64,000 nt of DNA, taken from Rosistilla carotiformis (lineage in GTDB: Bacteria > Planctomycetota > Planctomycetia > Pirellulales > Pirellulaceae). Below the pieces are notes generated by a model, which saw only the letters and a list, made by a program, of their open reading frames with translations, had not been told where the DNA came from and did not search any database. This document shows, one piece after another, positions 22,598-30,723 of the stretch. The stretch is from assembly GCF_007753095.1 (NCBI RefSeq), contig NZ_CP036348.1, positions 1,674,001 to 1,738,000 on the forward strand, read 5' to 3'. The position numbers and the translations under genes are program-made. The first letter of the stretch is position 1. The number at the start of each line of letters is the position of its first letter.

Positions 22598-23965
22598 CTA
22601 GCGTGACTTCGACGAGTAGTCCAGCTGCCACCATCCGTCGTCCCATTCCAAGGTCACCTTACGCCAGTTCAACGGAACTTGCGGGTAAGGATAAAACGGT
22701 CCGATGTACGGCCAGGCCGAAGGACTGTATTGCTTGGGGTAAGACAGGGCTGCATAGTTTGGATAGGCCGAATAGCCTGGCCATGCGTAGTTAGGCAGGT
22801 TGGGTTGATCGGTTCGTGGCGAACCGTAAGCCATCCCTGCAGATGCGGGTTGCATCGGCATCGGTTGGCCGCCCATCATCGTCGCTCCTTGAACCATCAT
22901 GCCGCTCGATGCGTTGGCATATGGTTGTGGCATGGTGCTAGGACGATAAGGAACCGGCATCATCCGAGCTGGCGAACGTGTCATGCCAGCCTGTGGAGCC
23001 GCGTGAGCAACGGGGCGTGGCACAGGGCGAACCGACGCGGGAGCGAGTCCCTGCGGCAGTGGCATCGGCGACGCTTGGAACACGGGAACCGAATCCGAGG
23101 CTTGGCGAACCTTAGCCGAAGGATCTTGCATCAGGACCTTGATGTCATCCACAACGTTGGTGACGCCAGGGACATTGCGGACGATTTCGAGCATCGATGC
23201 GCGTTGTTCGCCGGTCACGGTCCGACCTTGCAGCCAAACTTCACCATCGTTGGTGGTGATGTCCATGGCAAAGCCACGCAGACGACCATCTTGCTTGGCT
23301 TGTGTCAACGCTTGGGTAATCCGAGCGTTCAATTCGCGGTCGCGATCGCCCGCGGTGGGCTGAGCCGCCACAGGACGCTTGTTGCCAACGGGCATGACTT
23401 CGATCGGTTCGATCGACGATGCCAATTGGGTCACAGGCCCCGCGGTTGGTTGTGCGATCGCTTCGGGAACGATCACCTTTTGAGCAGGCTTTACGATGCC
23501 TGCAGGCTTAATGTCCGCAGCGGGTTTCACCACGCCGGCGGGAGTTGCGTCGACGATCATCACCGGTTGCGGCTTCTTGATCGACGAGATCGCGTTGGTC
23601 TTGGGAACCGATTGGACGGCTGGTTTGCCCATCACCAAAGTTGGTTCGGCGGTTTGTGCCGCTTTGCTGTCATTGGCGGTTGCCACGGGCAGCTTCATGT
23701 CATCGACGATATCCTTGATCCCGTCCACGCTTTTGGTCGCTTCGAGAACCAGGTTGCGTTGCGCCAAGGAAGCGACGCTGCCGTTGAAGGCGACGACGCC
23801 ATCGTTGACCTTCAGGTCGACCTTAAAGTCTTTCAACGCGCCCGAGTCGCGATGAGTTTTCAGTTTCAAAATAATCTGTTCGGCGATCTCGCGATCTCCC
23901 GACCACGCACTCAGCGGCATCGACATCGTTGCCATCATCGCCATACCGACAAATAGTCGTCGCAT
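22598..23965 (-). CDS. Exported protein with two BON domains
   Basis: 455 aa. Signal peptide (about residues 1-22), BON domain 1 at about 25-95 (IAEQIILKLKTHRD ... GVVAFNGSVAS ... GIKDIVDDMKL), a Pro/Val/Lys-rich linker, BON domain 2 at about 205-285 (NARITQALTQAKQDGRL ... GEVWLQGRTVTG ... GVTNVVDDIKVL), then a Met/Pro/Gln/Tyr-rich tail ending in YPYPQVPLNWRKVTLEWDDGWW. BON domains bind phospholipid or help maintain the envelope. The low-complexity tail suggests surface or cell-wall contact. ATG 23965. Confidence 0.85.
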   Translation of the reverse strand: MRRLFVGMAMMATMSMPLSAWSGDREIAEQIILKLKTHRDSGALKDFKVDLKVNDGVVAFNGSVASLAQRNLVLEATKSVDGIKDIVDDMKLPVATANDSKAAQTAEPTLVMGKPAVQSVPKTNAISSIKKPQPVMIVDATPAGVVKPAADIKPAGIVKPAQKVIVPEAIAQPTAGPVTQLASSIEPIEVMPVGNKRPVAAQPTAGDRDRELNARITQALTQAKQDGRLRGFAMDITTNDGEVWLQGRTVTGEQRASMLEIVRNVPGVTNVVDDIKVLMQDPSAKVRQASDSVPVFQASPMPLPQGLAPASVRPVPRPVAHAAPQAGMTRSPARMMPVPYRPSTMPQPYANASSGMMVQGATMMGGQPMPMQPASAGMAYGSPRTDQPNLPNYAWPGYSAYPNYAALSYPKQYSPSAWPYIGPFYPYPQVPLNWRKVTLEWDDGWWQLDYSSKSR

Positions 23966-24355: not shown

Positions 24356-24697
24356 TTACGACGATCGAAAGAAGCGAATAAAGGCGCCCAACGCCAGCAG
24401 CGAGCTGAACAGAGGAATCAGCACAAGCAGCAGTTTGGGTTGGAATACCGCAGCGCCGATCAAGATCACGACGACCGCTGTTGCCCCCGGCGGCAACCAC
24501 GCCGCCGGACGCCGAATCACCGGCAGGGCAACCCAACAGGCCAGCAGCACAAAGCCCACACGCAACAATGCGGCGTTAGAAACCGATTGCCCTAACCGAT
24601 CGCTAAACGCTTCGCGAAAACCGCCCCACAGCAGCAGGCTGACAGCGGCGACCAGCAGCAGATTCCGCTGAAGTTTCGACGACGTTTCATCACTCAT
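24356..24697 (-). CDS. Small integral membrane protein (hypothetical)
   Basis: About 113 aa with three or four predicted transmembrane helices (LLLVAAVSLLLWGGF, LLRVGFVLLACWVALPV, GATAVVVILIGAAVF, LLLVLIPLFSSLLALGAFI). ATG 24697 starts 7 bases after the stop of the upstream Deg-like gene, so it is the last gene of that operon. No family recognised; possibly a membrane partner of the exported Deg-like proteins. Confidence 0.6.
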   Translation of the reverse strand: MSDETSSKLQRNLLLVAAVSLLLWGGFREAFSDRLGQSVSNAALLRVGFVLLACWVALPVIRRPAAWLPPGATAVVVILIGAAVFQPKLLLVLIPLFSSLLALGAFIRFFRSS

Positions 24698-24703
24698 TTG
24701 CAA

Positions 24704-26665
24704 TCAAATCCGATCCAACGAACGGATCCAACGCCCGACCGTATCTTGAATTTTGGGGTCATCGGCCAACGGCTCTTTCTCCGACGACGGCGCTTGCAGC
24801 ACGGGAAAGCCGACGTTGGCGATCATGCGTCCCCAGATCGGCATTTCATCCCCGCCCACGACCAGAAACTGTAGCGGCGACGCCGGATCGTTTTCGCTCA
24901 ACGCAAACCCTCCCGGGCGGCTGCCCGCCGCGGCAACTGCTCCGCGAATCAGTTCGCGGTTGCGCATCGCAACCATCATGCTCATCTCGGACCCTGCGCC
25001 GTAACCCGCAACCACAACCTGCTGCGGTTCGACGTTGATCGCCTTTTGGGCCTGTTGAATCAGCCGCACGATCACATCGCTTTCGGCGGGCTTCCAGCGG
25101 TCCGTTTCCGCTGCGCCGATCACCAGAACGGCGATCTGATGCTCCGCCGCTTCGCTCCGCCAAGCCTCGGCCAACGGTTCCAACTTTTCCGTACCAGGAC
25201 GCGCCAGCAAGACCAGCAACCCGAGGCTGGGACGGGCGTCCCCTTTTGGTTTCAGCAACCGACTGGTGTTGGAAACGTCGGGCAGCGAACGGGGGACGAT
25301 TTCCCAAGCCTCTTCGCCGATCGGATCCTTCAGTTCGGGGAGTTCGGCAACGACGGTGTCGGGAGTCGATTGCAGGTCGCAGCGAACGTCCAACGGTTTG
25401 CCGTCGCGAAGGACGGTCAAATCCAAGTCCTCTCCAGGAGGATGTGTCATCACCAACAACCGGGCTCGATCGATGTCGTCGATCTTGTTGCCATCGATCG
25501 CTTGGATCGTGTCGCCGATCTGCAGCTTCGCCTTGGCGGCGGCCGAGTCGTCAAAAATGTGAGTGATTTCCAGCGATTCGCCCTGCGGATCGGCCAGCAC
25601 GCCGAGGACGCGAGGCCGGAAAGCGGGGATATCAGCGGCCAATTCGACCTCGAATTCCAGTTCCTTCTCGTCGCGGAGGACCTTGATTTTCAAGACCTCT
25701 CCCGCATCGCGTGGTCCCAGCAATTGTTTGATATCAGCGTTCCAGCGGACCGCTTCTCCATCGATCGCTAACAATTCGTCGTCGGCTTGAATACCGGCTC
25801 GTTTCGCTGGCGAGAGGGCCAGGACAGCCGACAGCGTGCGGTCGTCGGAAAAGGGCATCTTGCTGGCCGGTACGATCCCCAGCTTGCCCGCGCGGATGTC
25901 TTTGCCCGCTTTCATTTGATCGATCCGGCTGGCGATTGCTTCGGCCGAAACGACAAAGGCGATTCCCGAATCGTACCAGTCCGACTTCTCTCCCGCTGAA
26001 CCGGCTTCGGGTTTCATCGGGACCGAGATCCCGATCATTTCGCCTTCGATATCGACGACCGGACCGCCATAAAACGACGGTGAAATACGGGCATCGATCT
26101 GAACGGCTCGGCCGTACATCCGCCCAGTGGCACTGACGATGCCGATCGAAACCGAAGGGGTTTCCGGTGCGATCCCGCGGCCGACTGCGATCGCCCACTG
26201 GCCAACGCGAACCTTCTCGCTGCGTTGCAACGCGACATGGTTCGCCGAACCGCTAGGCTTTGTTTTCAGCAGCACCAGCTCGCGGCTGAAGTCCCGCGCG
26301 ACGAGTTCAGCTGGCTGCCGCGAACCGTCCGCTTCGACGATCAAGATGCTCGCCGGCGTCTCTTCCAAGCCCCACAGGCTGGTCAGAACATGCCCTTGGT
26401 CATCGATCCGCGTTCCCGAGATCGGCGCTCCCAGGGTCAGTTCTCCCTGCGATGCCGAAGCTCCGATCGTTTCGATCTGCACGACGGCACCCGCCGTCTG
26501 CTGGATCGCTTGTTGGATCGCTGCGTATTCGGCGTCTTGAGCGTTTGCGACGCCCGGCGACAGCGACGCGGCAACCGCGACGGCCAGCCCAAAGCCCGCA
26601 AAAAACGGCGTGATGAACCGGCGGCCTGGCCGCGGCGACTGGTTGTTTTGTCTCATGTGTTTCAT
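24704..26665 (-). CDS. Deg-like pseudoprotease with two PDZ domains and a degenerate alpha/beta-hydrolase domain
   Basis: 653 aa, exported (signal peptide to about residue 42). Residues about 45-255 have the trypsin-like Deg fold, but the triad is gone: aligned to the active paralogue next door, His is Trp98 (GHVLTSLWGLE), Asp is Glu129 (SRELVLLK) and Ser is Tyr199 (SPSFYGGPVVD). Two PDZ domains follow (about 262-345 and 352-432). The C-terminal 170 residues look like an esterase-type alpha/beta hydrolase whose nucleophile elbow reads GYGAG (554-558), with Gly where Ser belongs. So it is probably a binding or scaffold protein. Start 26665; nine bases after the previous stop. Confidence 0.85.
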   Translation of the reverse strand: MKHMRQNNQSPRPGRRFITPFFAGFGLAVAVAASLSPGVANAQDAEYAAIQQAIQQTAGAVVQIETIGASASQGELTLGAPISGTRIDDQGHVLTSLWGLEETPASILIVEADGSRQPAELVARDFSRELVLLKTKPSGSANHVALQRSEKVRVGQWAIAVGRGIAPETPSVSIGIVSATGRMYGRAVQIDARISPSFYGGPVVDIEGEMIGISVPMKPEAGSAGEKSDWYDSGIAFVVSAEAIASRIDQMKAGKDIRAGKLGIVPASKMPFSDDRTLSAVLALSPAKRAGIQADDELLAIDGEAVRWNADIKQLLGPRDAGEVLKIKVLRDEKELEFEVELAADIPAFRPRVLGVLADPQGESLEITHIFDDSAAAKAKLQIGDTIQAIDGNKIDDIDRARLLVMTHPPGEDLDLTVLRDGKPLDVRCDLQSTPDTVVAELPELKDPIGEEAWEIVPRSLPDVSNTSRLLKPKGDARPSLGLLVLLARPGTEKLEPLAEAWRSEAAEHQIAVLVIGAAETDRWKPAESDVIVRLIQQAQKAINVEPQQVVVAGYGAGSEMSMMVAMRNRELIRGAVAAAGSRPGGFALSENDPASPLQFLVVGGDEMPIWGRMIANVGFPVLQAPSSEKEPLADDPKIQDTVGRWIRSLDRI

Positions 26666-26674
26666 CCTAACTGA

Positions 26675-27685
26675 CTATCGAACCAGTCTCAGCGACAAGA
26701 TTTCCGAGCCCCGCTGCAGGACGATTGGAACCGGGTCGCGGCGATCGATGCTGCGCAGCTGCTCCAACAGGCGGTCCTGGTTTTCGATCCGGACCTTCCC
26801 GACCAACAGAATCAAATCGTCGGGCCTCAGCCCCGCCGCGTCGGCGGGCGATTTCGGAACGACGGCGTCGACGTAGGCGGGCGTCTGGTCCAAGACATTG
26901 GGGACCATCAACAGCCCCAGCGTTTCAAAGTTGTGCGATTTGTCGCGAGCCAACAGCTCCGTTTTTGGCGGCTCGACGATCGCTTCGCCCGAGACGATTG
27001 CTAGCAGCCGCGGTCGCAGCGTCGTTGCGGGCAGGGCGTAGTTCAGCCAAGCACCGCTGCGCGCGTCGCGAAGTTCCTTCCCCAGCATGCCGACCAATTC
27101 GCCAGCTCGCGTGACCAGAGCACCTCCCGCCGCGCCGGGGTTATTCGCGACCAAGTCCAAGATCAGGACCTCGCCTTGATAAGCCGATTTGAAGACGCCG
27201 CTGCGAGCGTCCAGTTCGGCAACACCTGCGACATAGCCCTGCATCACGCTGGCGGGCTCGCGTCCGGTGGCGATGTTAAACAGGTTGCTGATCGCTAGCA
27301 CTGGCTGGCCTGCTTGCGTCGGTGGGACCTCGCGAATCGCAAAGTAAGGCAAATCGCCCGCTTCGATTTTCAAGACCGCCAGTTCCAGCTGCGGTTCAAA
27401 CCCGACAACCTCGGCTTCGAAGCGTCGTCCGTCGTCGAGGATCACCACGGGATCGACGTCCAGGACATAGCTCCATGCCGTCGCGATGTGCCCTTCGGGG
27501 GAGACGAGGAAGCCGCTTTGATAGGCTTCCAGGCCGCCCAAGCCGCCGGCACCGTAGACCTTCACGACTTTACGCCGCGCGTCCTGGATCGTCTTTTTGA
27601 CAGGATACTGAGCCCGCAGCGTGGCGGTATTCAGGACCAGCGTCGCTAGCAACGCCACGATCATGCATCGAATTTTATTGTTCAT
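26675..27685 (-). CDS. Deg-like pseudoprotease with one PDZ domain
   Basis: 336 aa with signal peptide (to about residue 25). A Deg-type trypsin fold (about 30-235) with all three catalytic positions replaced: His by Ser72 (ATAWSYVLD), Asp by Glu101 (LELAVLK) and Ser by Ala186 (NPGAAGGALV, against NPGNSGGPLY in the active paralogue). One PDZ domain at about 245-330 (TPAYVDAVVPKSPADAAGLRPDDLILLVG). The glycine frame of the oxyanion loop is kept, so the fold is probably intact. The start overlaps the end of the upstream active Deg gene by 11 bases. Confidence 0.85.
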   Translation of the reverse strand: MNNKIRCMIVALLATLVLNTATLRAQYPVKKTIQDARRKVVKVYGAGGLGGLEAYQSGFLVSPEGHIATAWSYVLDVDPVVILDDGRRFEAEVVGFEPQLELAVLKIEAGDLPYFAIREVPPTQAGQPVLAISNLFNIATGREPASVMQGYVAGVAELDARSGVFKSAYQGEVLILDLVANNPGAAGGALVTRAGELVGMLGKELRDARSGAWLNYALPATTLRPRLLAIVSGEAIVEPPKTELLARDKSHNFETLGLLMVPNVLDQTPAYVDAVVPKSPADAAGLRPDDLILLVGKVRIENQDRLLEQLRSIDRRDPVPIVLQRGSEILSLRLVR

Positions 27686-29393
27686 TTGCCGACGCCTTCC
27701 ATTGTTCGACCTGCATCCGCCAAGCCCGTCGCTCGCCGAAGTAGAGCGACAGTCCCACGGGTTGATTATTGTCCCCCGCTTCGATCAACAGCTCCGCCGG
27801 GTCGCGAAAGCGATCGGCCCAGCATTCGACAGCTTCCAGCCGCCCCGATTCGGGATCGAAGTAGAACCATGACTCGAGTTCTCCGGAGGTGCCGACCAAG
27901 ACGTTGCGGAGCGGATATTCGCCACGCAGTGGCATCGTCCCCAGATAATAGACCTCACCGAATCGATCCGGTCCCAACGCGACCATCCGCTGCCAAGCGT
28001 CCAGGCAGGCGGCGAAGGCGGGCAATTGCTGGCTATCGATCCCGTCGTACAGAGCGGTCGGGTCGAGGAGCGTCGGCTGGCCCCCATCGGTTGCGATCGA
28101 GACCTGCTTGCCCAGGTTCAGTTCCAGCACGGGGCCGTCGTTGTCGGTTGGCCCTTCGATCGTCCAAGCTCCCGACGCATCGGGGCTGTGCTTCTTCAAA
28201 GCCTCCCACAACCGCTGCTGATGCAGTCGATTGAAGTAGTAATTGGCGTATCCATGTTTGGCTTCGTAAACCGCTTCGACAGACGCGGGCAGTTCGGCGT
28301 CGTGCGCATTTGCAGCGGCGATCTGATCCTTCTCGGCGTCCCCTTCCTTTTGCTTCGGTCGGGGTGGAGGTGGCGGCATCGACGCGGCCATCTTCTCCAG
28401 CAGTTCATCGCGGCCGTGGACGCCCGCCAAGCGAACGATCGTGTCGACGTTGCGGCCTTCATGGCGGAAGCTGATCGGCACGCGCCAGCCTTTGGGAAGC
28501 GTGCCGAGGACGTTTTGCAGATCGTTAGCCGACGCGACGTCGCGGCGGTTGACCGCCAGGATTTCCGCACCGTAACGCAGCCCGCGGCGGTAGGCGTCGG
28601 AGTTCTCCAGGATGTTGCTGACAATCACCTTCCCTTCGTCGGTGGCAACGGTCGCACCTAGCGTGGCGTGGTCGACGATCCGGCCGCTGTGCAGATAGCC
28701 GAGGAAGTTCTTGGCCTGGTTGATCGAGATCGCGTAGCCGACGCCAACGTTTACGCGGCCTCGCTTTTCGAAGGAGGCACGGCCGACGATGCCGATCAAT
28801 TTCGAATCGGCGGCGTACAGCGGACCGCCCGAATTTCCTGGGTTGATCGACGCGTCGGTTTGCAAGCAATCGGCATATTCCAAAAGCGTTCCCGACGGAT
28901 ATTGATAGCGATGGACGCCGCTGATCAACCCCCAGGTGACGGTCGGTTGCAGGTCGTTGGCCAGCAGGAACGGATTGCCGATCACCATGCACCAATCGCC
29001 CTGTTGGACGCGGTCGCTGTTCCCTAGCTCTGCGGCGGAGAAGTCGCTGCGTCCCAGAAGTTTCACGAGCGCCAGGTCGCCGACCGGATCGATTCCCACG
29101 ATCACGGTGTCGTACAGATTTCCGTCGGCCATCCCGCAGACCATGTACGCGCCGGCGGGGCTGCTGACGTGGAAATTGGTCAGCGCGAAACCTTCGGGAT
29201 CGATGACCACTCCGCTGCCGCCTCCCGCTCCGCTGGGAACGAACACGCTAACAGCCGAATTGGTCGCCTGGGCGATCGCCGCAATCCGATCCGCTTCGGC
29301 TTTCAAAACACTTGCATCGACATCCGCAGCGCGGCTGTTTGCCGGCAGGGCGACAAGCAGACACGCGGCTAAAAACGACTTCCGGTCGATCAT
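27675..29393 (-). CDS. Exported Deg/HtrA-type serine protease with PDZ domain
   Basis: 572 aa, signal peptide to about residue 22. A complete catalytic triad is visible: His75 (LTNFHVSS), Asp106 (VGDLALVK), Ser188 (NPGNSGGPLY). One PDZ domain (about 250-340) follows, then a linker rich in Pro and Lys (MPPPPPRPKQKEGDA) and a C-terminal domain of about 200 residues that I do not recognise. A periplasmic quality-control or regulatory protease by family. Its ATG overlaps the stop of the upstream NPCBM-like gene (ATGA). It is the only catalytically complete member of the three-gene Deg set. Confidence 0.92.
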   Translation of the reverse strand: MIDRKSFLAACLLVALPANSRAADVDASVLKAEADRIAAIAQATNSAVSVFVPSGAGGGSGVVIDPEGFALTNFHVSSPAGAYMVCGMADGNLYDTVIVGIDPVGDLALVKLLGRSDFSAAELGNSDRVQQGDWCMVIGNPFLLANDLQPTVTWGLISGVHRYQYPSGTLLEYADCLQTDASINPGNSGGPLYAADSKLIGIVGRASFEKRGRVNVGVGYAISINQAKNFLGYLHSGRIVDHATLGATVATDEGKVIVSNILENSDAYRRGLRYGAEILAVNRRDVASANDLQNVLGTLPKGWRVPISFRHEGRNVDTIVRLAGVHGRDELLEKMAASMPPPPPRPKQKEGDAEKDQIAAANAHDAELPASVEAVYEAKHGYANYYFNRLHQQRLWEALKKHSPDASGAWTIEGPTDNDGPVLELNLGKQVSIATDGGQPTLLDPTALYDGIDSQQLPAFAACLDAWQRMVALGPDRFGEVYYLGTMPLRGEYPLRNVLVGTSGELESWFYFDPESGRLEAVECWADRFRDPAELLIEAGDNNQPVGLSLYFGERRAWRMQVEQWKASANEQ

Positions 29394-30538
29394 TTTCGCA
29401 ACCTCGGTTTCCTGAGCAGAAGAGCATCTCCGGTCGAACTGTCCTGCCCCGATTCGACGCGGATCTGCAACCGTCGTTTCCCCGCGACATCCAATTGGAT
29501 CGCTTCGGGCAACTCCGCCGCCGTCAGCTTTTTGTCCAACGCCGCATCATCGTCCAACTGGATCACCAAGCGGACGACGCCGCCGTCGAAGGAGCGGTTG
29601 GGAGTTTCGACGATCGTTTCAAACAATCGATCGTCGTCCCCCAATCGGATCGTCAGTTCCGAACCAGCCGACAGAGCGATCCCCGACGCGACATCACGCG
29701 GGCCGAACAGCGTCTTCGAAAACGCGGGGTCCAACAGTCCGCCAATCGCTGCGGCGAATGAAACGCTTGCCGCGTCGGCAGCTCGCAGCATCCGCACGTT
29801 GCCGCGGAATTCGATCTGTTGAATTCGATCCAACGCAAACGTGCGCGAGATGCCCGCGGCGGTTTCCAGCTGCAGCGTTTTGCCTTGGCCGGTGATTTTG
29901 CTAGCTGCCCAAGTCGATCCGGCGATATCGGTGATCTGAGCTTGGATCTTTGTTGGTTCGGCGTCGCTGCCGCGGAAGACGATGCCTTCCAAGCGGTCCA
30001 GCGGCGCGTCGACTTGTTGCCCTCCCAGGTCGAACGAGACCGCATCGCGACCGATGGCCAGAACCGTACCGGCGATTTCATCCAGTTGATCGCTGCCGGC
30101 ACGTACCACCAAGGTGTCAGCCGGTTTGTCCGCGGCTTGCTTCTGTTCCCATTGTTCGTTGATGCCTTGGGCAACCGGTGGGCGGAAACGGATCCAGGCG
30201 ACTTGTTTCAGCGGGACGTCTAAGGTGGCGTCGTCGGCCGCAGCTCCCAACAGATCGAGGGTCACCGACTTGCCTTCGGCTTGAACGCTGCGCACCCTCA
30301 ACTGACTGCCATCGACGAGCCCGACACGGATCGCTGTGGCCGATGGGGAGGCGTCGGCGTTGCGACGCAATTTGACGACCGATTCGATTGGGTATTGTTC
30401 GGTTTTGCCCGCGGTTTCGATCGTTATCGCGGTTTCATCGATCGCGACCCAATTGCCCGCAATCTTTTGCCCATCGACGCTGTCGACGGTCACCTGACCG
30501 AGCCCCGCGACGATCAGCAAGAATCCAATAAAAGCCAT
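29390..30538 (-). CDS. Exported protein with NPCBM-like C-terminal domain
   Basis: About 382 aa, first gene of the Deg-type operon. N-terminal hydrophobic segment (AFIGFLLIVAGLG) then several short beta repeats of the SM-like or 'VDGQKIAGNWVAID' type, each about 45-60 residues (VDSVDGQKIAGN, LVDGSQLRVRS, EIAGTVLAIGRDAVSF). The C-terminal half has SGIALSAGSELTIRL and FDGGVVRLVIQLDDD, which resemble the NPCBM (carbohydrate-binding) fold. ATG 30538 was preferred because the longer frame has no signal peptide. Possibly it targets the Deg proteins to a wall or polysaccharide ligand. Confidence 0.65.
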   Translation of the reverse strand: MAFIGFLLIVAGLGQVTVDSVDGQKIAGNWVAIDETAITIETAGKTEQYPIESVVKLRRNADASPSATAIRVGLVDGSQLRVRSVQAEGKSVTLDLLGAAADDATLDVPLKQVAWIRFRPPVAQGINEQWEQKQAADKPADTLVVRAGSDQLDEIAGTVLAIGRDAVSFDLGGQQVDAPLDRLEGIVFRGSDAEPTKIQAQITDIAGSTWAASKITGQGKTLQLETAAGISRTFALDRIQQIEFRGNVRMLRAADAASVSFAAAIGGLLDPAFSKTLFGPRDVASGIALSAGSELTIRLGDDDRLFETIVETPNRSFDGGVVRLVIQLDDDAALDKKLTAAELPEAIQLDVAGKRRLQIRVESGQDSSTGDALLLRKPRLRK

Positions 30539-30723
30539 GTTTGGGTATGCCAGCTGTGATGAATACCAAGGGACGCGACTCGTCCCGACGCTCCATTGTA
30601 GGCTGAAAACCTTAACATGTCTTGGATCGTGAGGTGCGATCAGGCAGCAGGACCAAAAAACGGCCACCCACGCGGGTGGCTAGGCCTGTCCGGAAATCGC
30701 ATCGCAAAACTTCCGACGGCAAC

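Follow-up and report, generated by a model that had tools for sequence, protein, structure and literature searches.

Three HtrA-type proteins are encoded one after another on the minus strand of the 64-kb stretch of Rosistilla carotiformis DNA analysed here (the window), and they raise the question of why a working protease is kept beside two relatives that lack its catalytic residues. Deg1 (27675..29393, 572 aa; Trypsin_2 2.9e-27, PDZ_2 2.2e-06) has the triad H75-D106-S188 and one PDZ domain, and is followed by Deg2 (26675..27685, 336 aa; Trypsin_2 5.3e-21), also with one PDZ domain, and Deg3 (24704..26665, 653 aa; Trypsin_2 5e-20), with two PDZ_2 stretches. The frames of all three are open, and each protein matches both Trypsin_2 and PDZ_2 above the Pfam curated cut-offs, which bears out an earlier reading, made from the sequence only, of three consecutive Deg-type proteins with a shared fold. 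That reading's residue assignments also hold: alignment to solved HtrA proteins and within each family places H75/D106/S188 of Deg1 opposite S72/E101/A186 of Deg2 and W98/E129/Y199 of Deg3, with a single PDB alignment putting Y73 instead of S72 at the His place of Deg2, where the ungapped reading gives S72. Deg2 and Deg3 are thereby predicted to be homologues of the HtrA/Deg family and not enzymes of it. The local module begins with a gene for a protein with a C-terminal NPCBM/NEW2 domain (29390..30667, minus strand; Pfam NPCBM 9.4e-07), which overlaps the start of Deg1 by 4 bases, as Deg1 overlaps Deg2 by 11 bases, and which lies immediately 5' of Deg1 in 133 of the 140 loci whose sequence extends far enough to show it.

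Pairs of an active and an inactive HtrA protein are known in a handful of special settings, but among 297 genomes from one class Deg2 and Deg3 occur together in 256, neither occurs in 40, and Deg2 alone occurs in one, the exception being G288, which has no strong Deg3. The C-terminal domain of Deg1 agrees with Deg2 in 293 of these 297 genomes (G350 has only the Deg1 C-terminus; G292, G314 and G382 have Deg2 without it). Beyond the class, the set is patchy and confined to scattered lineages, most genomes drawn being without it, and a strong Deg2 accompanies a strong Deg3 in 20 of 21 genomes (exception, G429). All three domains are visible at 148 of 180 loci when somewhat lower cuts are applied, the remainder including duplicates, contig ends and dispersed genes. 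Linkage is not always preserved: one genome (G163) retains all three genes at separate sites, three (G029, G083 and G093) retain Deg3 elsewhere in the genome, and another (G052), in which Deg2 and Deg3 are fused to each other, retains Deg1 elsewhere. Fusion open reading frames in relatives comprise eight of Deg1 with Deg2 and one of Deg2 with Deg3. Fusions and co-retention favour a joint function, and we read NPCBM-Deg1-Deg2-Deg3 as a proteolysis module of old standing in planctomycetes. Because the working protease is nearly always kept with both dead relatives, these two probably serve to keep the active Deg1 assembled or to direct it, and are not leftovers. On balance, we favour a role in envelope quality control in which Deg2 and Deg3, themselves non-catalytic, partner or regulate Deg1. 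Of the mixed active/inactive complex first proposed for this locus, the retention, the constraint and, through fusions and co-retention, the joint function are upheld; the physical Deg complex and the direction of regulation are steps that we infer.

The closest precedents of the Deg set are MamE/MamO and plant Deg7. As in the magnetotactic bacteria that encode MamE and MamO, active and inactive trypsin-2 genes lie side by side in one cluster; unlike there, the cluster has two dead partners, each forming one clade, and usually an NPCBM gene, with a LolA/RseB-like domain in Deg1 and often a dead esterase-like domain in Deg3. The NCBIfam models for MamO and MamE give the Degs 33-40 and 35-120 bits, respectively, short of the cut-off of 800. 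According to the available portions of PMC4794232, MamO carries a TauE-like transporter domain as well as a metal site, active/inactive pairs arose separately in three magnetotactic taxa, and MamO is required non-catalytically for proteolysis by MamE, with no physical interaction between the two detected. Plant Deg7 trimerises through its degenerate protease domain (PMC4754418, in part), and in Deg7 and the Deg7-like proteins of rice and moss an active and a degenerate protease domain cooperate (available parts of PMC4754418 and PMC3473262). The eight Deg1-Deg2 fusions of relatives have the same layout, an active domain and then a dead one, whereas the window has separate genes, no double-protease chain, and a further inactive protein whose nucleophile place is taken by Tyr.

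Since MamE and MamO act without detected contact, a common operon need not imply a complex, and Deg2 and Deg3 may be independent of Deg1, having been repurposed as binders (for example of metal, lipid or peptide tails) that share with it only an operon and a substrate pool. This reading, which we regard as unlikely though deserving real weight, draws on the metal-binding protease domain of MamO (PMC4794232, in part), on the two PDZ stretches of Deg3 and the room for an esterase-like domain in 137 of 165 Deg3 forms (those of at least 560 aa), and on the unlinked genes of some genomes; near-complete co-retention with Deg1 and repeated Deg1-Deg2 fusions fit a joint function better.

If Deg2 and Deg3 are partners of Deg1, Deg1 would be the sole cutter of the module, and the other two would most likely be subunits that set the oligomer or relay an activation signal to it. 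HtrA trimers relay such a signal via an Arg of loop L3, as known from work on DegP and DegS. This Arg is kept in 165 of 165 Deg3 domains and, together with the Tyr at the nucleophile place, would suit a subunit able to signal but unable to cut. A relay of this kind would not suit Deg2, because the Arg is not kept there: the window has Glu, and relatives have Pro (33), Arg (23), Gln (18), Lys (18) and others. The predicted structure of Deg3, a check proposed with the sequence-only reading, has the full HtrA fold (pLDDT 89.2; HtrA structures match at Z 25-28, top Z 27.7), the whole-model comparison being filled by HtrA rows and so speaking for the protease part and not for the hydrolase domain. 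Deg2 and Deg3 could also be brakes or decoys that lower the activity of Deg1, either by binding the same tails through their PDZ domains or by joining its trimers. In favour of this role, PDZ_2 is present in 29 of 29 Deg3 scanned and in the Deg2 of the window, and the Tyr at the nucleophile place of Deg3 is bulky; but the dead partner helps in both precedents (MamO for MamE, PMC4794232; trimerisation of Deg7, PMC4754418; both sources in part), and retention of the L3 Arg in Deg3 speaks for a signal that activates, so that this role appears improbable.

The loss of catalytic residues extends well beyond the window. The Deg1 triad is intact in 41 of 41 sequences, and in 151 domains no readable position departs from it (ten partial or low-scoring Deg1 rows excluded, whose readable residues are the catalytic ones). 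In this count and in those over 165 domains, identical domain sequences were counted once. A relative with a nucleophile Ser was sought among 180 loci, an uneven sample of which 80 are the best 80 of 559 relatives matching the Deg3 alignment, and Ser was found in 0 of 165 readable Deg2 domains and 0 of 165 Deg3 domains; the Deg3 rows excluded are L183, which is not a Deg3, and L096, a true Deg3 with Tyr that falls just below the cut. This alignment of homologues finds the replacements conserved in relatives and present in many families, and the idea that the loss is an oddity of the genus was rejected. At the nucleophile place, Deg3 has Tyr in 163 of 165 domains, while Deg2 varies among A, P, G, Y, Q, T, F, E and D; the His and Asp places of Deg3 vary widely. 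A change from Asp to Glu is mild, and since Deg2 has Glu at the Asp place in 103 of 165 readable domains, still has Asp in 23, and still has His at the His place in two, the consistently lost residue is the Ser. That Deg2 or Deg3 is not truly dead and has recruited an alternative residue for catalysis is very doubtful; the candidates would be S72 in Deg2, a Ser in all 41 of 41 sequences and in 139 of 165 readable domains, and Tyr199 in Deg3, a Tyr in 163 of 165, the variability of the Deg2 nucleophile place and of the Deg3 His and Asp places being what is expected of a lost site.

In the phylogenetic tree, Deg1, Deg2 and Deg3 each form their own clade, one mis-assigned row aside (Deg3_L183, an ordinary HtrA of genome G105); once the row is removed, Deg3 falls into a single clade (25 rows, 100/99), and with it Deg3 shows two changes. 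Operon copies of a diverged type cluster together within each of the three clades. The tree suggests that catalysis was lost once in Deg2 and once in Deg3, before the sampled lineages split, and it was not regained in any of the domains read. Comparisons within the genus give dN/dS values of 0.041-0.059 for Deg1, 0.041-0.054 for Deg2 and 0.137-0.144 for Deg3; the constraint on Deg2 equals that on Deg1. The earlier argument that the dead copies are retained and not decaying gains from the conserved replacements, from dN/dS values of 0.04-0.05 (Deg2) and 0.14 (Deg3) and from the HtrA-fold model of Deg3. The same frames occur in two other genomes of the genus (Deg2 97-98% and Deg3 88-93% identical), and sequencing error is therefore unlikely. 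Decaying or mis-sequenced genes, for which nothing speaks beyond the missing triads, were rejected as a negligible prospect in view of the open frames, the replacements common to many relatives, the low dN/dS and the high-confidence HtrA model of Deg3. Present in most genomes drawn from the class and in scattered lineages outside it, with one loss per partner by the tree and no regain in the domains read, the Deg set is a strong natural test of the purpose of a dead protease subunit.

Under the partner reading, the sensing of substrates or lipids would be divided among the PDZ domains, the C-terminal domain of Deg1 and, where present, that of Deg3. The former (residues 373-572, 27678..28277, minus strand) is modelled by AlphaFold2 at pLDDT 90.8, and the model has a LolA-like half-barrel fold: Foldseek returns RseB and LolA-family rows (E 2e-4 to 1e-3), and VIA-align places the LolA-superfamily structure 3buu first (Z 12.0, rmsd 3.6, 169 aligned), followed by LolA, LolB and RseB rows, the likeness to RseB being at the level of the fold (Z 5-7, TM 0.25-0.28). 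Among curated sequence families, LolA_like is matched by one of 31 Deg1 C-terminal members (E 0.064). In the envelope stress response of E. coli, the HtrA protease DegS acts with a separate sensor protein of RseB/LolA fold, RseB; here a domain of this type is fused to the HtrA protein itself. DegS has, to our knowledge, no dead partners. The C-terminus of Deg3 (residues 440-653, 24707..25348, minus strand) is assigned by sequence profile to the alpha/beta-hydrolase fold, with matches to a PHB-depolymerase-family esterase (2e-10, by profile against solved structures), to NCBIfam NF050058 (1.3e-06, short of its cut-off) and to Abhydrolase_3 in 11 of 24 Deg3 C-terminal members (E up to 0.1). This domain, too, is degenerate: in the window GYGAG replaces the GxSxG elbow, with Gly at the nucleophile, and Ser is present in four and absent in 129 of 133 readable relatives, only L106 having a true GxSxG, although the place is less certain in rows without the elbow glycines. 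The sequence-only reading mentioned neither of these two domains, nor the NPCBM partner, nor a MoxR/Bat-type operon.

The surroundings of the module in relatives may point to a larger system. A MoxR-DUF58-BatA operon lies 5' of it in seven of 11 stretches of relatives, and also in G112, the MoxR, DUF58 and BatA/VWA genes being followed by coiled-coil, TPR-like, NPCBM and the three Deg genes. Relatives of MoxR, DUF58, BatA and the coiled-coil and TPR-like proteins were sought within the 64-kb window and none was found; the BatA/VWA part sits at 2.69 Mb (G000:C1). The upstream genes resemble the MoxR-Bat (aerotolerance) operons of Bacteroides, spirochaetes and others, from which the relatives differ in the coiled-coil, TPR-like, NPCBM and Deg genes that follow. 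In the available text of PMC5700661 and PMC3557215, no HtrA gene is named as a member of MoxR-Bat operons, and the latter, in the same portion, calls Bat function elusive. A literature search gave, among the matches listed, no apparent description of these proteins or of a MoxR operon with an HtrA gene. The module, whose proteins are predicted to be exported and which probably belongs to the cell envelope, may be the periplasmic arm of the MoxR AAA+ system, being in many relatives the distal part of its operon, with any link to MoxR activity conjectural; the tie would give this system, which lacks a clear output, a proteolytic one, in a group whose envelope quality control is thinly known. We put forward, tentatively and with somewhat less than even confidence, an old MoxR/DUF58/BatA AAA+ envelope machine of Planctomycetota whose periplasmic arm would be a Deg hetero-oligomer. 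In it, a single cutter with its built-in LolA/RseB-like sensor would be joined by two pseudoproteases, one inactive both as protease and as esterase, and catalysis would lie in one subunit type and control in the others. At the other end of the module, directly 3' of Deg3, an open reading frame (24356..24703, minus strand) encodes a 115-aa protein that matches no Pfam family and appears membrane-like by eye; among 40 loci, the small gene is present at three (L053, L054 and L067).

The best-supported reading of the three consecutive Deg-type genes in the window makes Deg2 and Deg3 non-catalytic partners of the triad-bearing Deg1. All are encoded on the minus strand: Deg1 (27675-29393; Trypsin_2, 2.9e-27, plus PDZ_2), Deg2 (26675-27685; Trypsin_2, 5.3e-21, plus PDZ_2) and Deg3 (24704-26665; Trypsin_2, 5e-20, plus two PDZ_2 stretches). 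The Deg2 ORF overlaps that of Deg1 by 11 bases and is separated from that of Deg3 by 9 bases, and an NPCBM-domain gene upstream (29390-30667) overlaps Deg1 by 4 bases, an arrangement as in one operon. By eye rather than by predictor, signal-peptide-like N-terminal stretches are seen in all three Deg proteins, and in the NPCBM protein if an internal Met is its start. No NCBIfam model matched any of the four proteins at its cut-off. Downstream of the module, on the same strand, lies a protein with two BON stretches (22598-23965), found close to the module also at loci L053, L054, L067 and L071. A membrane-like protein of 143 aa immediately 3' of Deg3 at another locus (L072:2851-3282), with relatives in L034, L043 and L070, may be the counterpart of the 115-aa protein at 24356-24703.

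Alignment to solved DegP, DegQ and relatives, together with within-family alignments, placed the triad positions at H75-D106-S188 in Deg1, S72-E101-A186 in Deg2 and W98-E129-Y199 in Deg3, bearing out the assignment of the sequence-only reading for all three proteins. Among 147 genomes sampled from the genus, family and order, 136 have a Deg2 relative (E <= 1e-25). In the window and 40 further loci Deg1 has its full triad (41/41), the Deg2 nucleophile position holds Ala in 36, Thr in 2, Pro in 2 and Gln in 1, and by a by-eye count that of Deg3 holds Tyr in 37 of 38 rows, with Val in L038. When 180 loci were read, each identical domain sequence being taken once and ten partial or low-scoring Deg1 rows and two Deg3 rows being set aside, all readable Deg1 residues were catalytic (His 147/147, Asp 150/150, Ser 150/150). 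The expectation that the replacements are conserved in relatives held, Ser being found at the nucleophile position in 0/165 Deg2 and 0/165 Deg3 sequences: readable Deg2 sequences have Ala (122), Pro (10), Gly (9), Tyr (7), Gln (6), Thr (5), Phe (3), Glu (2) or Asp (1), and those of Deg3 have Tyr (163), Val (1) or Phe (1). Replacement in Deg2 is less strict at the Asp position (Glu 103/165, Asp 23/165).

The set is retained jointly across the class. Deg2 is present in 257 of 297 class genomes (E <= 1e-40), and the best Deg3 E-values separate into two sets, none lying between 2.7e-66 and 7.9e-95; both proteins occur in 256 genomes, Deg2 only in one (G288), Deg3 only in none, and neither in 40. 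The Deg1 C-terminal domain (E <= 1e-5; 255/297) agrees in presence with Deg2 in 293 of 297, the disagreements being Deg2 without the domain in G292, G314 and G382 and the domain without Deg2 in G350; these tables were compiled by hand from lists, and where an absentee was not named there it was deduced by elimination. Of the 40 genomes with neither protein, 32 are the drawn members of family f21, and they are without the Deg1 C-terminal domain as well, a natural loss that could reveal what the module is needed for. Among 244 genomes drawn across the phylum, occurrence outside the class is patchy, with strong Deg2 in 20 genomes (E <= 1.3e-58) and strong Deg3 in 21 (E <= 6.2e-86), 20 being common to both and G429 the exception. 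Genome G163 encodes the three proteins at three separate places, their expected residues kept; Deg3 is retained away from Deg2 in G029, G083 and G093; and G052 has a Deg2-Deg3 fusion and a Deg1 match (6.8e-158) on a different contig.

Maximum-likelihood analysis of 86 protease domains gave separate clades for Deg1 (25 rows, support 100/98), Deg2 (24 rows, 100/99) and, once one mis-picked row was removed, Deg3 (25 rows, 100/99). In all three clades, diverged-type operon copies (L094, L103, L107) cluster with L150, a locus outside the class, which indicates that the whole trio was duplicated or transferred together. This diverged type, with a Deg3 lacking the hydrolase domain, was seen in L094, L095, L097, L103, L107, L110 and L111, as a second or sole copy; two Deg2 matches per genome were found in 14 of 147 genomes. 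Comparison of three genomes within the genus gave dN/dS values of 0.041-0.059 for Deg1, 0.041-0.054 for Deg2 and 0.137-0.144 for Deg3. The Deg3 model, built from a 29-row alignment, has a mean pLDDT of 89.2, and its matches to HtrA structures score Z 25-28.

The loop-L3 arginine has a role in signal relay in DegP and DegS. Deg3 keeps this residue (R182) in 165/165 sequences, along with Q189 (165/165) and D191 (163/165). At the aligned place Deg2 has Glu in the window and does not keep Arg, its relatives having Pro (33), Arg (23), Gln (18), Lys (18) and others.

Residues 373-572 of Deg1, modelled in isolation (pLDDT 90.8), gave RseB and LolA-family proteins as best Foldseek rows (E 2e-4 to 1e-3); TM-scores were low (RseB 0.25-0.28; the LolA-superfamily protein 3buu 0.56). 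VIA-align gave 3buu at Z 12.0 (rmsd 3.6, 169 aligned), next came rows for LolA and LolB, and RseB scored Z 5-7; as modelled, the domain is LolA/LolB/RseB-like in fold. The C-terminus of the window Deg3 is an alpha/beta-hydrolase domain (profile match of 2e-10 to a PHB-depolymerase-family esterase; NF050058, 1.3e-06) with the elbow GYGAG. At its nucleophile place only 4 of 133 readable relatives have Ser, the commonest residues being Gln (46), Gly (29) and Glu (23), and 28 of 165 Deg3 proteins are shorter than 500 aa, without room for the domain, including diverged operon copies, several members of the order and most of the genomes from outside the class that were read. One Deg3 relative (L106:3812-5716) has a true GxSxG (GQSTG) and may thus retain an active esterase part.

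Of the 140 loci with room for it (at least 1.5 kb), 133 have the NPCBM gene immediately 5' of Deg1. Ahead of NPCBM, many relatives have a TPR-like (24/54 loci) or coiled-coil-like gene (28/54), and outside the class both occur in 15 of 20 loci; these genes adjoin the module in 0/17 of the window's closest relatives (L053-L069), and of the upstream genes, NPCBM is the only one for which a relative was detected within the window. Of 11 stretches of up to 20 kb, where greedy ORF choice may hide genes, 7 have genes with the Pfam names MoxR, DUF58 and BatA farther upstream on the module's strand, and in G112 the series was read from MoxR through the start of Deg2. The genome of the window carries a group of BatA, VWA, c3, coiled-coil and TPR-like genes at 2.69 Mb of contig C1, with no Deg genes in the stretch read there. 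A very large protein precedes the MoxR gene in L297, L299, L305, L309 and L314; that of L299 has PQQ/BamB-like and TPR matches and is followed by a terpene-cyclase-toroid-like protein.

As partners of Deg1, Deg2 and Deg3 could act as scaffold, relay or brake; the PDZ and LolA/RseB-like domains may do the sensing, and the module may be coupled to MoxR. There are two precedents for such partners: MamO activates MamE non-catalytically, with no contact between the two detected (PMC4794232), and trimerisation of plant Deg7 is mediated by its degenerate domain (PMC4754418, PMC3473262). Fusion ORFs of relatives (eight Deg1-Deg2, one Deg2-Deg3; families f1, f7, f51, f56 and f78) come from many-contig draft genomes; the Deg1-Deg2 fusions resemble Deg7 in carrying an active and then a dead domain in a single chain. 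The literature search found no description of these Deg/NPCBM proteins or of an HtrA-containing MoxR operon. The window's genome twice more pairs a triad-bearing trypsin-like domain with a degenerate one (G000:C1:2159541-2160773, L084 and L088; G000:C1:6187631-6189006, L083 and L090), once as a fusion of 647 aa and once as adjacent genes; the second domains have no His at the aligned place and Cys at the nucleophile position (EECGGP, DQCGGP).
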